Source: Parasporobacterium sp.
GTDB lineage: Bacteria; Bacillota; Clostridia; Lachnospirales; Lachnospiraceae
Direction of reading: 5' to 3'
Assembly (NCBI GenBank): GCA_017459985.1
Contig: JAFUBX010000005.1
Span: 1-64,000 of the forward strand
Length of the DNA stretch: 64,000 nt
Shown piece after piece: positions 22,404-26,380 of the stretch (its first letter is position 1; each line of letters starts with the position of its first letter). A program made the translations under genes and the position numbers. Under the pieces are notes generated by a model. The model searched no databases, was not told the origin of the DNA, and saw only the letters and a program-made list of their open reading frames with translations.

Positions 22404-25400
22404 ATGACTACGTTATCTCAGGATGCATTGGAAAAGTCATTGAAGATCTTCAACAAAACGATTGTGGGAGGAACCTTATTCACACTTGATAAGCTCCTCA
22501 ATGTTCTGGGAGGATTGTCTCCCAGGTTCCGGGAGGAACTGAAAGAACATAACATTACCGTGCAGTTGAGACTTCGTGACAACAGTTACGGGAGATGGTT
22601 CACCTTCAAAGACGGGGTTGTCTCCGGTCAGGACGGCATCAATCCGGACTGTATGGTGGAAATGATCTTTGAGGATGAAGCCTGCGCGCGCCGTGTCACC
22701 GCCCTGATCCGGAATCAGTTCGATTTTGTCAATGCGGCAAAGCAGGGACAGCTTGTGCTGAATGGTCCGGATGCGGAAGCAATGTGGTTTTCGTCACTGC
22801 TTCTGAAAGTATTTGCCTTCGATGTTCTGTATCTCGGCAATTACGGAACCAAGATGCCAAACGGGGAGATGCGTTATGTAACGGGAACCAACGGGGGGCC
22901 GCTGTTCGTCTATGTGAAGGATGACAAGATCGTGCGTGTAACCCCGATCGATTTTGATGATGAAGATCCCGAGATGTGGACAATCAAAGCCCGGGGACAG
23001 GAACTGACTCCTCCCCGCAGGACCACGGTGGCGCCTTATGCCCAGGGTTGGAAACAGATGGTCTATTCTCCCAACCGGTGTCTGTATCCCATGAAGAGAG
23101 TCGATTTTGATCCCGATGGAGACCGGCATTATGAAAACCGGGGTGTCTCCGGGTATGAAAGGATCAGCTGGGATGAAGCTCTGGATATCGTATCCAAAGA
23201 AATGATCCGGATCCGGCAGACCCACGGACCCGGAAGTATCTTCGCTTCCACCGGATCCCATCATAACTGGGGAAGCATCGGCTATTATCTGTCCTGCGCA
23301 AAACGGTTCTTCAGCTGCATCGGCGCAACCATGTGCATGCATAATCCGGACAGCTGGGAAGGCTGGGCCTGGGGCGGGCAGCACCATTTCGGCGGCAGCG
23401 CCAGAAACGGCGGAACGGAGCCCTATGGTACAGTAGAAGACTGTCTGCAGAATTCCGAATTCATCGTTTTCTGGTCCTCGGATCCGGAGTCGACCTCCGG
23501 CAACTACGCGGGTCAGGAAGGAACCATCCGCAGGGAATGGATCAATAAACTGGGAATCCCGGTCGTACATATTGACCCCTATCAGAATGCAACCGCAGCC
23601 TTTGTCAGAGGCCGCTGGATCTGTCCGAGACCGGCGACGGATTCCGCGCTGGGAATCGCCATTGCCAATGTGTGGATGCATGAAGGTCTTTATGACAAGG
23701 AATATGTTGCGGAAAAGACCTATGGATTTGAAAAATGGGAAGAATACGTCCTTGGAAAGACAGACGGAATCGATAAGACTCCGGAATGGCAGGAGGATAT
23801 CACCGGCGTTCCGGCCAGAACCGTCCGGGCTCTGGCAAGATACTGGGGAACCCATAAGACCTATCTGGCCTGCGGATCCATGACCAGTTTCGGAAGCGCC
23901 GGACGTGCGGCCTACGGAACGGAATGGGCCAGAGTCTGTGTCTGCCTGATTGCGATGCAGGGACTTGGCAAGCCCGGCGTTAATTTCGGTACCCTGCAGT
24001 ACGGAACGCCGCTGGATACCAAATTCTGGTTCCCGGGATACGCGGATGGCGGTTTTTCCGGTGACTTTATCACCACCGGCGCCGGTGTGGCTCTTTATAA
24101 CAGAATGCCCCAGACTCCGTCCATCAATTCGGAATATCAGGCAATTCCGAGACTCCTTCTTCCGGAAGCCATCATGGGGGAAGAAGTCGACTGGCATCAG
24201 CTGGGTGTTTATTCTGTCCATTCCCAGTTCATGCAGCTTCATTATCCGGCACCGGGACATGAACGGGTGAAAATGTATTACAAATACGGCGGATCTCATA
24301 TGGGAACCCAGCCGGAATCCAAGAGATATGCAAAGCAGTACCGGAACGACAGCCTGGAATTTGTCGTCAACCAGAGCGTCTGGTTCGAAGGAGAAGCCCG
24401 GTTTGCGGATATCATCCTTCCGGCCTGCACTAACTTTGAACGCTGGGATATCGGAGAATTTGCTTCCTGCGGCGGATATATTGAAAAATCCTATCTGCAG
24501 AACAATTCCCGTGTCATTTTTGTGCAGCATAAATGTATCGAGCCCCTCGGAGAGAGCAAGGCGGATTTTGACATCTTCCAGGAAATCGCCAATCGTCTGG
24601 GATTATGGCAGGTGTATTCGGAAGGAAATACAGAATATGACTGGGCGAAGAGGTATTACGAAGCGACCGATATGGCAAGAGTGATGCCCTGGAGCCGGTT
24701 TATCAAGAAAGGTTACTATGTGGTGCCGCCATGCTCCGAAGGACGCAGGGATCCGGTGGCGTTCCGCTGGTATGCAGAAGGAAGAAAGAAGGATACGCCG
24801 GAACTGACGCCGCTGCCGTCCGAATACTACGGCCGTTATGCGGAGGGCCTGCAGACTCCATCCGGAAAACTGGAATTCGAATGCCAGACGCTGAAACGAT
24901 ACGATCCGGATGATGAAGAACGTCTTCCGATCTGTACCTATATCCACAGCTGGGAAGGCGTCGGTTCAGAACCCTATGCAAAATACAAACTGCAGCTGAT
25001 CTCCCCGCATTCCAAATATTCCTTCCACACCATGGGTGATCTGAAGGATACCTGTATCAACGACATCCAGGAACACCGGATGCTGATCGACGGACACAGA
25101 TACTGGATTTTCCGTATGAATACGAAAGACGCGGAGGAACGGGGCCTGAAGCAGGGCGATATCATCGAGGTATACAACGACAGAGGAAAGGTCCTCTGCG
25201 GACTGGAAACAACAGAACGGGTACCCCAGGGAATCTGTCATTCCTATGAATCCTGCGCCGACTATGTCACACTGGAGAATGATCCGGGCGGCGAGGACAC
25301 CACTGAGATCATGGGATGTATCAATAACCTGACACCGAAGAGATTTATCACAAAGCACGCCCACGGGCTGTCGGTCAATTCCTGCCTTGTGGAAGTCAGA

Positions 25401-25427
25401 AAGTGGGAAGGAGGTAAGGTCGGATGA
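22404..25427 (+). CDS. Transhydroxylase-type molybdopterin enzyme with N-terminal SCP2-like domain
   Basis: A 1007-residue bis-MGD enzyme. Residues 1-140 look like an SCP2 (sterol carrier/UbiJ-UbiT type) lipid-binding domain (ITVQLRLRD, RWFTFKDGVVSG, AAKQGQLVLNGPD). From about residue 143 it matches the large subunit of pyrogallol-phloroglucinol transhydroxylase of Pelobacter acidigallici: no N-terminal 4Fe-4S cysteines, and His286 (GSHHN), Asp316-Ser317 (NPDSWEG) and Tyr546 (FPGYAD) lie exactly 142 positions after the residues I recall as His144, Asp174, Ser175 and Tyr404 of that enzyme. Ser317 would be the Mo ligand. The small subunit follows with a 4-base overlap. The likely chemistry is hydroxyl transfer, hydroxylation or dehydroxylation of a phenolic ring; the SCP2 domain suggests a lipid-linked or very hydrophobic substrate. 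Confidence 0.85.
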   Translation: MTTLSQDALEKSLKIFNKTIVGGTLFTLDKLLNVLGGLSPRFREELKEHNITVQLRLRDNSYGRWFTFKDGVVSGQDGINPDCMVEMIFEDEACARRVTALIRNQFDFVNAAKQGQLVLNGPDAEAMWFSSLLLKVFAFDVLYLGNYGTKMPNGEMRYVTGTNGGPLFVYVKDDKIVRVTPIDFDDEDPEMWTIKARGQELTPPRRTTVAPYAQGWKQMVYSPNRCLYPMKRVDFDPDGDRHYENRGVSGYERISWDEALDIVSKEMIRIRQTHGPGSIFASTGSHHNWGSIGYYLSCAKRFFSCIGATMCMHNPDSWEGWAWGGQHHFGGSARNGGTEPYGTVEDCLQNSEFIVFWSSDPESTSGNYAGQEGTIRREWINKLGIPVVHIDPYQNATAAFVRGRWICPRPATDSALGIAIANVWMHEGLYDKEYVAEKTYGFEKWEEYVLGKTDGIDKTPEWQEDITGVPARTVRALARYWGTHKTYLACGSMTSFGSAGRAAYGTEWARVCVCLIAMQGLGKPGVNFGTLQYGTPLDTKFWFPGYADGGFSGDFITTGAGVALYNRMPQTPSINSEYQAIPRLLLPEAIMGEEVDWHQLGVYSVHSQFMQLHYPAPGHERVKMYYKYGGSHMGTQPESKRYAKQYRNDSLEFVVNQSVWFEGEARFADIILPACTNFERWDIGEFASCGGYIEKSYLQNNSRVIFVQHKCIEPLGESKADFDIFQEIANRLGLWQVYSEGNTEYDWAKRYYEATDMARVMPWSRFIKKGYYVVPPCSEGRRDPVAFRWYAEGRKKDTPELTPLPSEYYGRYAEGLQTPSGKLEFECQTLKRYDPDDEERLPICTYIHSWEGVGSEPYAKYKLQLISPHSKYSFHTMGDLKDTCINDIQEHRMLIDGHRYWIFRMNTKDAEERGLKQGDIIEVYNDRGKVLCGLETTERVPQGICHSYESCADYVTLENDPGGEDTTEIMGCINNLTPKRFITKHAHGLSVNSCLVEVRKWEGGKVG

Positions 25428-26380
25428 AAAAATTTCATATGATCATAGACCTGGAAAAATGTGTGGGCTGCTTCAACTGTATGCTGGCCTGCAAGGATGA
25501 ATATGTCGGAAACAGCTGGCTTCCCTACACACAGGAGCAGCAGAAGCATGACAATAAATGGATCTGCCCCACCATGACGGAGCGGGGAGAAGCTCCCTAT
25601 ACAGAGGTTACTTATGTGACCAGGCTGTGCCAGCACTGCGACAACGCGCCCTGTGCGAAGAAATACCCGGATGTGTTTAAGAAGAGAAGCGACGGGATCA
25701 TGCTGATCGATTATAAAAAAGCCGGAGATAGAAACCTTATGGACGCCTGTCCCTATGGGATGGTTTCCTGGAATGAGGAACTCGGATGCGCCCAGAAATG
25801 TACCGGCTGCGCTCATCTGATCGATGACGGCTGGCATGAGCCCCGCTGCGTGCAGTCCTGTCCGCTGCGTGCCCTGCAGACGGTGTTCTGTGAAGATCAT
25901 GAGTGGGAAAAGATCGTGGAAAAGCAGGGCCTGAAACCGATCACGGACGGCACTAACAAACCGAGGGTTATGTACAAAAACCTGTATTATTACAATAAAT
26001 GCTTTGTAAAGGGAGCCCTGTGCTTTGACCAGGAGGGAATCGAAGAGGCAGCCATTGATGCCAGAGTAGAACTGCTGGTGGGAAAGATTCCGGTGGCGGA
26101 GACTACAACGGATTTCCTGGGTGAGTTCTATATTGACCGGATTCCGAAAAATTCCGGAACCATGACCATCCGGGCGACCTATAAAGATTTCGAACCCCTG
26201 ACGGTTGATTTCGATATGGCGGATAAGAGTGTGGTGCTGGATGCCCTGAAATTCGGCGGCGGAAAGGGAAAACCCGCAGTTATTCTTCCGAATGACCATG
26301 CCAATGCCCAGGCTCTGGATCACATGATCCCGAAGGATGTCGAGGCGGCAAAGAAAGCATTTGCAGAAAAGAAAGCGTAG
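25424..26380 (+). CDS. Transhydroxylase-type small subunit: 4Fe-4S ferredoxin with C-terminal transthyretin-like domain
   Basis: A 318-residue protein. The first 190 residues are a polyferredoxin (CVGCFNCMLAC, CQHCDNAPC, CTGCAHLIDDG, CVQSCP). Residues of about 210-290 form a beta-sandwich like transthyretin or the carboxypeptidase regulatory domain (ARVELLVGKIPVAET, TTDFLGEFYIDRIP, TIRATYKDF). This combination is the architecture known for the small subunit of pyrogallol-phloroglucinol transhydroxylase, which strongly supports the call for its partner. ATG overlaps the stop of the large subunit by four bases. Confidence 0.87.
   Translation: MKKFHMIIDLEKCVGCFNCMLACKDEYVGNSWLPYTQEQQKHDNKWICPTMTERGEAPYTEVTYVTRLCQHCDNAPCAKKYPDVFKKRSDGIMLIDYKKAGDRNLMDACPYGMVSWNEELGCAQKCTGCAHLIDDGWHEPRCVQSCPLRALQTVFCEDHEWEKIVEKQGLKPITDGTNKPRVMYKNLYYYNKCFVKGALCFDQEGIEEAAIDARVELLVGKIPVAETTTDFLGEFYIDRIPKNSGTMTIRATYKDFEPLTVDFDMADKSVVLDALKFGGGKGKPAVILPNDHANAQALDHMIPKDVEAAKKAFAEKKA

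Follow-up and report, generated by a model that had tools for sequence, protein, structure and literature searches.

Large and small subunits of the molybdoenzyme

The window analyzed here, a stretch of 64,000 nucleotides of contig JAFUBX010000005.1 from a Parasporobacterium sp. genome (GCA_017459985.1, here G000; 3.5 Mb in 131 contigs), encodes a molybdoenzyme of the pyrogallol-phloroglucinol transhydroxylase type whose large subunit carries an SCP2-like domain fused in front. The variant is real and conserved, belongs to an enzyme family already known, and stands in a striking operon. A preliminary description of this DNA had placed the large-subunit gene at positions 22404 to 25427 and the small-subunit gene at 25424 to 26380, both on the + strand, and these coordinates are right; the two genes overlap by 4 bp. 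The large subunit (1,007 amino acids; PF21423, PF00384, and PF01568) matches the Pelobacter transhydroxylase (PaTH; PDB chain 4v4c_A) over residues 156 to 1005 (E value, 1.9e-285), with 51.5% identity in the core, and the first ca. 150 residues are extra. Since the Pfam domain AhtL-like_1st (PF21423) is present and Molybdop_Fe4S4 (PF04879) is absent, the N-terminal 4Fe-4S motif is missing, in agreement with the lack of its cysteines described before.

The small subunit matches chain 4v4c_B over residues 1 to 273 (E value, 8.8e-53). Both subunits are thus homologous to PaTH along their full length, as expected from the transhydroxylase-type core proposed earlier. The proposal of a small subunit with a matching iron-sulfur part and a transthyretin-like domain holds for the former, as 12 Cys residues line up with the 12 corresponding ones of PaTH, while Pfam gives only a weak match to the C-terminal transthyretin-like region (CarboxypepD_reg; E value, 8.8e-4, under the cutoff). 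The protein ends in a tail of ca. 40 residues; among the 20 small subunits aligned, this tail is confined to the Lachnospiraceae branch of the window type. Of the named full-length relatives, the nearest (95% identity) comes from a Parasporobacterium metagenome-assembled genome from sheep jejunum.

Active site and substrate pocket

Alignment with PaTH places His286, Asp316, Ser317, and Tyr546 of the window enzyme opposite His144, Asp174, Ser175, and Tyr404, every one at an offset of 142, exactly as stated in the preliminary description. Across 19 fused sequences, H144, D174, S175, W176, Y404, and Y560 (PaTH numbering, used from here on) are kept without exception; Y152 is replaced by Asn in one sequence and C557 by Ser in three (L039, G838, and G799). 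Arg153, on the other hand, is changed to Tyr, Phe, Trp, or Ser in all 19, and Trp354 is Phe in 18 and Leu in the remaining one. Both residues, which we take to line the substrate pocket of PaTH, are retained in all eight sequences of the PaTH group. In four unfused sequences that are more distant, position 153 is Lys and position 354 is Phe or Gln; L052, another of these, is unaligned at both positions. The fused enzyme probably performs a PaTH-like type of chemistry on a different substrate or with a different substrate orientation. Genome G780 has two fused copies in tandem (L012:2492-5518 and 6786-9818), the first with Asn152 and Ser153.

The N-terminal SCP2-like domain

Comparison of profiles supports the previously proposed SCP2-like front domain (residues 1 to 153; 22404 to 22862, + strand) as a remote member of the SCP2 family, sub-cutoff in Pfam and above controls in profile-profile alignment. 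Pfam SCP2 (PF02036) matched residues 38 to 133 over profile positions 7 to 100 of 101 (E value, 0.024 to 0.031), with 15.1 to 15.4 bits versus a gathering cutoff of 21.3. Sub-threshold matches were obtained for 5 of 20 fused-domain sequences (4 of 14, with a best E value of 0.0022; one of five further ones; and none for the single domain of G940). In the one match among the five further sequences, LapA outscored SCP2, and the longer domain of G226 gave no Pfam SCP2 match.

With hhalign, the 20 fused domains aligned to seven clostridial SCP2 proteins with a score of 32.3 (probability, 56%); eight unrelated families gave 11.8 to 17.0, and none of 200 column-shuffled SCP2 profiles exceeded 20.6. 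UbiT, an accepted SCP2 protein, scores 31.3 versus the same seven proteins. Other comparisons speak against the assignment: a flavodoxin-linked SCP2 set scored no better than the controls (10.8), and scores with single UbiJ or UbiT sequences were weak (18.3 and 15.0, respectively). So does a PDB profile search with the domain alignment, which returned no SCP2 chain and two chance matches (E values, 0.87 and 1.3), and a PF02036 search of 16 genomes matched the fused enzyme in only one (a G780 copy; E value, 0.0018, sub-cutoff). When a hidden Markov model of the domain was run against 1,083 open reading frames of the fetched loci, several SCP2 proteins were among the best non-self matches, none of them significant (best E value, 0.054), and the top non-self match was not an SCP2 protein (0.051). 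Elsewhere in the window's genome, an SCP2-family match of 43.8 bits lies in the frame of a protein that looks by eye like a glycogen/starch synthase (L054, G000:C97:92099-92335).

Distribution and phylogeny

Among the genomes sampled, fused forms were found in 6 of 397 from the family to which the window belongs, in 2 of 391 from its class (the window's genome and G226), and in 7 of 400 from the Sporobacter family, Sporobacter among them. At most two candidates were scored per genome in both family surveys, so that copy numbers are lower bounds. A pattern scan gave 10 named loci, 8 of which extend into the N-terminal domain, and five other genomes of the family of G226 had no fused enzyme (one of six, counting G226). 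Merged, these sources provided 19 fused sequences and 18 genomes with readable surroundings; L010 and L013, whose contigs are those of G722 and G689, were each counted once, and the short contigs L007, L011, and L014 are not among the 18.

In trees built with the core only, every fused sequence (13 at first and then 19) belonged to a single group with 100/99 support. A separate supported group comprised PaTH and its orthologues from Lachnospiraceae (74 to 83% identical to it), and two further unfused sequences were 62 to 64% identical to PaTH. L052 was left out of the trees and the residue count, and L104, L105, and L108 were left out of the 19-sequence tree. Five genomes (G411, G438, G689, G838, and G1048) also carry an unfused homologue, 52 to 53% identical to the window enzyme and, in the three aligned (G411, G438, and G689), of the PaTH type by active site; the fused enzyme therefore probably has a different job. 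Both the tree and the pocket residues rule out that the fused enzyme is a PaTH orthologue. Chance or a frame artifact is ruled out as well, since the fusion is a single open frame in all 18 genomes and the domain is conserved. By phylogeny and alignment, the SCP2-fused enzymes are a distinct subfamily within the pyrogallol transhydroxylase family. A full-text literature search, in which a limited part of the matches was covered, turned up no description of an SCP2-fused transhydroxylase.

The operon in the window

Directly downstream, as the preliminary description had it, a polyprenyl diphosphate synthase gene with both DDxxD motifs (26390 to 27496, +; PF00348, E value of 1.4e-53; TIGR02748, 9.5e-48, sub-cutoff) starts 9 bp past the small subunit. 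It is followed, all on the + strand, by genes for an HdrC-like protein (27432 to 28058; Fer4_8 and conserved order; the start was set mechanically, and the true one may be later), an HdrB-like protein with two CCG (non-cubane cluster) motifs at residues 10 to 83 and 153 to 232 (28055 to 29023; PF02754), an HdrA-like flavoprotein (29025 to 31004; 810.7 bits with the HdrA2 model, under its cutoff of 1,100), a FlpD/MvhD/FlxD-like protein (30995 to 31477; PF02662, E value of 6.5e-55), a ferredoxin protein (31474 to 32325; 4Fe-4S domains and a weak FrhB match) that by its position we presume to be FlxC-like, a FlxB/AsrA-like protein (32337 to 33422; TIGR02910, 190.8 bits, sub-cutoff), and a FlxA/AsrB-like FAD/NAD(P)H subunit (33426 to 34271; TIGR02911, 203.8 bits, sub-cutoff; PF00175 and PF10418). 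From the small subunit to the AsrB-like gene, intergenic distances range from -65 to +11 bp. With AsrB/AsrA-like, ferredoxin, MvhD, and HdrABC subunits together in conserved order, this middle block has the genes of FlxABCD-HdrABC, although the gene-by-gene correspondence is our assumption. A complex of that name appears in the reference list of PMC5861303.

On the same strand, ca. 8 kb downstream of the small subunit and preceded by a 235-bp gap, lies a UbiA/MenA-type prenyltransferase gene (34507 to 35595, +; PF01040, E value of 3.1e-23; best NCBIfam models, 1,4-dihydroxy-2-naphthoate [DHNA] prenyltransferases, sub-cutoff). The claim that it belongs to the same operon is right as to strand and direction, while, given the gap, a shared transcript with the enzyme is no more than likely. 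Genes for a radical SAM protein with a CxxxCxxC motif at residue 36 (35592 to 36590, +; PF04055) and a DUF445 membrane protein (36594 to 37472, +; PF04286) come next. Upstream, a LysR-type regulator gene (14690 to 15565, -; PF00126 and PF03466) is divergent from the gene array.

The stretch directly ahead of the enzyme (15688 to 22361) is a second molybdoenzyme operon, with an 882-residue PhsA/FdhF-like subunit that has the 4Fe-4S motif, DmsB-like and TorD-like proteins, and also an AsrA-like and two AsrB-like genes; among the loci compared, this block was found elsewhere only in L005. Other observations in the window are three consecutive genes at 49735 to 55776, for an AMP-binding and condensation protein resembling nonribosomal peptide synthetases, a lipocalin-like protein, and a radical SAM protein, and three AAA_14/DUF4143 ATPase genes (2057 to 3436; 4499 to 5992, - strand; and 56773 to 57951).

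Conservation of the gene context

A polyprenyl synthase gene and a bifurcating-type gene set stand beside the fused pair, in conserved order, in 15 of the 18 genomes, the module being of the Flx-Hdr type in 14 and of the FixABCX type in Sporobacter termitidis. UbiA is on the contig of the enzyme in 14 of these 15; in G722, UbiA, radical SAM, and DUF445 genes occupy a separate 3.7-kb contig. The three genes occur together in eight genomes, that is, wherever the radical SAM gene was seen (8/8), and at locus L117 the Pfam UbiA match reached 110.8 bits. The prenyltransferases scanned are nearest DHNA prenyltransferases. Five genomes (G438, G411, G689, G722, and G838) have UbiE/MenG-type methyltransferase genes in the stretches read; of the three compared with NCBIfam, that of G438 passes the equivalog cutoff for demethylmenaquinone methyltransferase, that of G722 passes a subfamily cutoff, and that of G689 passes none, while the G838 gene passes Pfam PF01209.

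The association of the SCP2-fused enzyme with prenyl genes, pointed out in the preliminary description, is real. PF01040 was found in 63 of 397 family genomes versus all six of that sample with the fused enzyme, for which our own arithmetic, uncorrected for kinship, gives a chance probability of ca. 1e-5. Conversely, nine loci of unfused homologues had no polyprenyl synthase or bifurcating-type neighbors, and the UbiA of the window was unmatched in four genomes that yielded unfused homologues only; G539 has some UbiA elsewhere. The preliminary description overlooked the Flx-Hdr type module between the polyprenyl synthase and UbiA, as well as the five UbiE/MenG-type methyltransferases and the changes at Arg153 and Trp354.

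In Sporobacter, a FixABCX type set surrounds the enzyme, in the order FixC-FixX-large-small-HepS1-like-polyprenyl synthase-90-residue protein-FixA-FixB, and no Flx-Hdr block occurs in the part read around it. The small gene that we presume to be HepS1-like, which had no NCBIfam match, corresponds to the N-terminal ca. 100 residues of the window's polyprenyl synthase. The set consists of FixC and FixX homologues and an EtfAB pair, the latter called FixA/FixB because of its company only; NCBIfam scores are mostly sub-equivalog, with FixC over one subfamily cutoff (PRK10015). FixC also exceeds by little the cutoff of the ETF-QO ubiquinone-binding family PF21162 (28.6 versus 27.7 bits). The prenyltransferase, ca. 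2.8 kb upstream on the other strand, passes TIGR00751 (menA). FixABCX is described in PMC8578096 and PMC5861303 as oxidizing NADH and reducing flavodoxin or ferredoxin and a quinone, with FixC as the quinone reductase.

Genomes without quinone-type genes beside the enzyme

Prenyl genes do not always accompany the fusion: in G226, G1048, and G940, no polyprenyl synthase, bifurcating-type genes, or UbiA were found in the 23 to 40 kb read around the fused enzyme. In G226, the fused enzyme lies just downstream of genes named by eye as coenzyme A-transferase, short-chain dehydrogenase/reductase, dehydrogenase, thiolase, lyase, and cyclase, types that fit the phloroglucinol pathway of Clostridium scatologenes (PMC10470551). 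Homologues of this cluster adjoin the fused enzyme divergently in G1048. The most divergent genome, G940, has neither quinone-type genes nor a phloroglucinol-type cluster nearby. Given that G226 is at the base of the fused group in the tree and G1048 sits beside Sporobacter, the fusion may predate the quinone association, with a later loss of that association possible in G1048.

A cyclohydrolase at least 70% identical to that of G226 was detected in 13 of the 16 genomes tested, G226 included; searches of G000 and G777 gave none, and Sporobacter has only a distant one. By this distribution, the cyclohydrolase marks phenol degraders generally and not the fused enzyme. Methyltransferases of the URO-D (O-demethylase-like) type lie near the fused enzyme in G1048 (L121:9684-10922), Sporobacter, G226, and G780 (flanks of L009, L036, and L057); Pfam was run on the G1048 protein only, and the others were named by eye.

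Proposed quinone-coupled phenol catabolism and its alternatives

We tentatively favor, at somewhat short of an even chance, the view that the SCP2-fused transhydroxylases are a subfamily of anaerobic plant-phenol catabolism coupled to a lipid quinone. It comes to mind mainly because, at one and the same place in the operon, two unrelated bifurcating-type modules are found, each accompanied by quinone genes. The ligand of the SCP2 domain, electron transfer to molybdenum, the reductive direction, the substrate, and bifurcation by the gene sets are all what we infer around the observed loci, as follows. NADH would be oxidized by the bifurcating module of the operon, of the Flx-Hdr type or, in Sporobacter, of the FixABCX type, with one electron stream going to ferredoxin and the other to a menaquinone-type quinone. 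The polyprenyl synthase and the UbiA/MenA-type prenyltransferase, joined in some genomes by UbiE/MenG, would make this quinone. The SCP2 domain may hold or dock it for a soluble, anchorless molybdoenzyme, its electrons would reach the enzyme through the iron-sulfur subunit, and the molybdenum site would take a hydroxyl off a polyphenol, an exergonic dehydroxylation that could pay for ferredoxin reduction. The more specific version, in which the fused SCP2 domain, and not a membrane anchor, carries a quinone or a prenylated hydroquinone (as hydroxyl-transfer partner) to the soluble enzyme and polyphenol dehydroxylation drives bifurcation and energy conservation in Clostridia of herbivore and termite guts, is possible, although we hold it with roughly one part of belief to two of doubt.

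Several observations weigh against quinone-coupled catabolism. PaTH itself is redox neutral, and we know of no fused-clade enzyme that has been assayed. The three genomes described above have no quinone-type genes near the enzyme, and the UbiA of the window is unmatched anywhere in the G226 genome; thus, a quinone made by the cell itself cannot be a constant requirement of the SCP2 domain. MenD was over the cutoff in none of 16 genomes, compared with 7 of 14 control genomes; 15 of the 16 had weaker matches. MqnA/D (PF02621) was found, weakly, in three of the 16 and not in G000. Therefore, DHNA would be scavenged or the head group would come from another route. The FixA/FixB pair of Sporobacter (EtfB and EtfA homologues) scores best with EtfB and acryloyl-coenzyme A reductase electron-transferring flavoprotein models, sub-cutoff. 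Phe354 is also found in two distant unfused sequences, L023 and L051, so that the change of Trp354 alone is no mark of the clade. Finally, HdrB retains both CCG motifs, which would suit a disulfide acceptor such as DsrC equally with a quinone, and an interaction of DsrC with Flx-Hdr in Desulfovibrio vulgaris is described in PMC10504309. As for scavenging, that of DHNA has been studied in Lactiplantibacillus plantarum (PMC10746273 and PMC9888254).

Another explanation, unlikely in our judgment and yet deserving about one chance in four, is that the fused enzyme is a redox-neutral transhydroxylase for another trihydroxybenzene (for instance, from hydroxyhydroquinone to phloroglucinol), with SCP2 serving assembly or substrate capture and the quinone and bifurcation genes being co-regulated energy genes that do not feed molybdenum. 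The six residues invariant in all 19 fused sequences agree with it, and so do the enzymes of G226 and G1048, beside a phloroglucinol-type cluster (reductase, cyclohydrolase, dehydrogenase, and lyase) and no quinone genes, together with the frequent cyclohydrolase. However, the cyclohydrolase is present too in genomes that yielded unfused enzymes only, and the tight linkage to a polyprenyl synthase and a bifurcating-type set in most genomes, absent from the unfused loci, would be unexplained. The reverse, oxidative direction, in which an aromatic would be hydroxylated with water and electrons would pass to the quinone with Flx-Hdr or FixABCX running backwards (confurcation), is equally compatible with the gene set and has a parallel in the resorcinol hydroxylase of Azoarcus, an oxidative relative of PaTH. 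We consider it quite improbable: judging by record titles, the hosts appear to live by fermentation or acetogenesis in the guts of herbivores and termites, the energetics would favor bifurcation, and no high-potential acceptor was seen, though no search was aimed at one.

A third alternative is an oxygen-independent enzyme of quinone biosynthesis, analogous to UbiT plus UbiUV, in which SCP2 would present a prenylated phenol made by UbiA and the polyprenyl synthase and molybdenum would, as the preliminary description had proposed, add, move, or remove a ring hydroxyl. The association with polyprenyl synthase, UbiA, and UbiE/MenG genes is what this idea predicts, and both UbiT and UbiJ, which take part in quinone synthesis, are SCP2 proteins (PMC6747719). 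The origin of the head group, left open by the MenD and MqnA/D searches, could moreover be an unfamiliar route in which the fused enzyme takes part, which keeps the biosynthesis idea alive. On the other hand, the active site is mostly that of a small-phenol enzyme, the prenyltransferases are nearest the DHNA type, whose naphthoquinone needs no added hydroxyl, and a seven-subunit bifurcating-type complex would be left without a role. As stated, a prenylated-phenol substrate is not supported, since 3 of the 18 enzymes have no prenyl genes nearby and two of these lie by a phloroglucinol-degradation cluster; all in all, biosynthesis looks rather improbable to us. Together, the bifurcating module, the UbiE/MenG genes, and the pocket changes make a quinone-coupled catabolic enzyme likelier, with the quinone as partner and not as substrate.

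If quinone-coupled catabolism is true, it would link transhydroxylase-type phenol chemistry, the isoprenoid quinones of gut Clostridia without a detected head-group pathway, and flavin-based bifurcation, a three-way link that we did not find in the literature searched. The gene context hints at a new route for gut bacteria to gain energy from polyphenols; the fused gene would then be a genetic marker of energy conservation driven by polyphenols in the rumen and the termite gut, with Sporobacter termitidis DSM 10068 as a named, testable example.

Comparison with known systems

Like the gut catechol dehydroxylases (Dadh, Hcdh, and Cadh), the fused enzyme belongs to the bis-molybdopterin guanine dinucleotide molybdoenzymes acting on phenol hydroxyls. 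In PMC7028382, dopamine is described as an electron acceptor, and the catechol dehydroxylases are placed away from pyrogallol hydroxytransferase; the window enzyme is on the hydroxytransferase side and is set apart from them by that placement only. With UbiT and UbiJ of ubiquinone synthesis it shares an SCP2-like domain tied to isoprenoid-quinone genes, which here is fused to a molybdoenzyme; no U32 (UbiU/UbiV) gene was present among the 20 neighboring proteins scanned, nor was DsrC. The middle block has, by homology, the subunit set of FlxABCD-HdrABC of D. vulgaris, but it is embedded with a molybdoenzyme and prenyl genes. Similarly, the Sporobacter enzyme is flanked by FixC and FixX homologues and an EtfAB pair, as in FixABCX of Azotobacter, although the set is broken by the molybdoenzyme and polyprenyl synthase genes and the EtfAB pair is not nearest the FixAB models. 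PaTH and the window enzyme have in common the full-length core, the missing N-terminal 4Fe-4S motif, the His/Asp/Ser/Tyr site, and the matching iron-sulfur small subunit; the window enzyme differs by its SCP2-like front domain, the replacement of Arg153 and Trp354, its separate clade, and an operon with a polyprenyl synthase and a bifurcating-type gene set.

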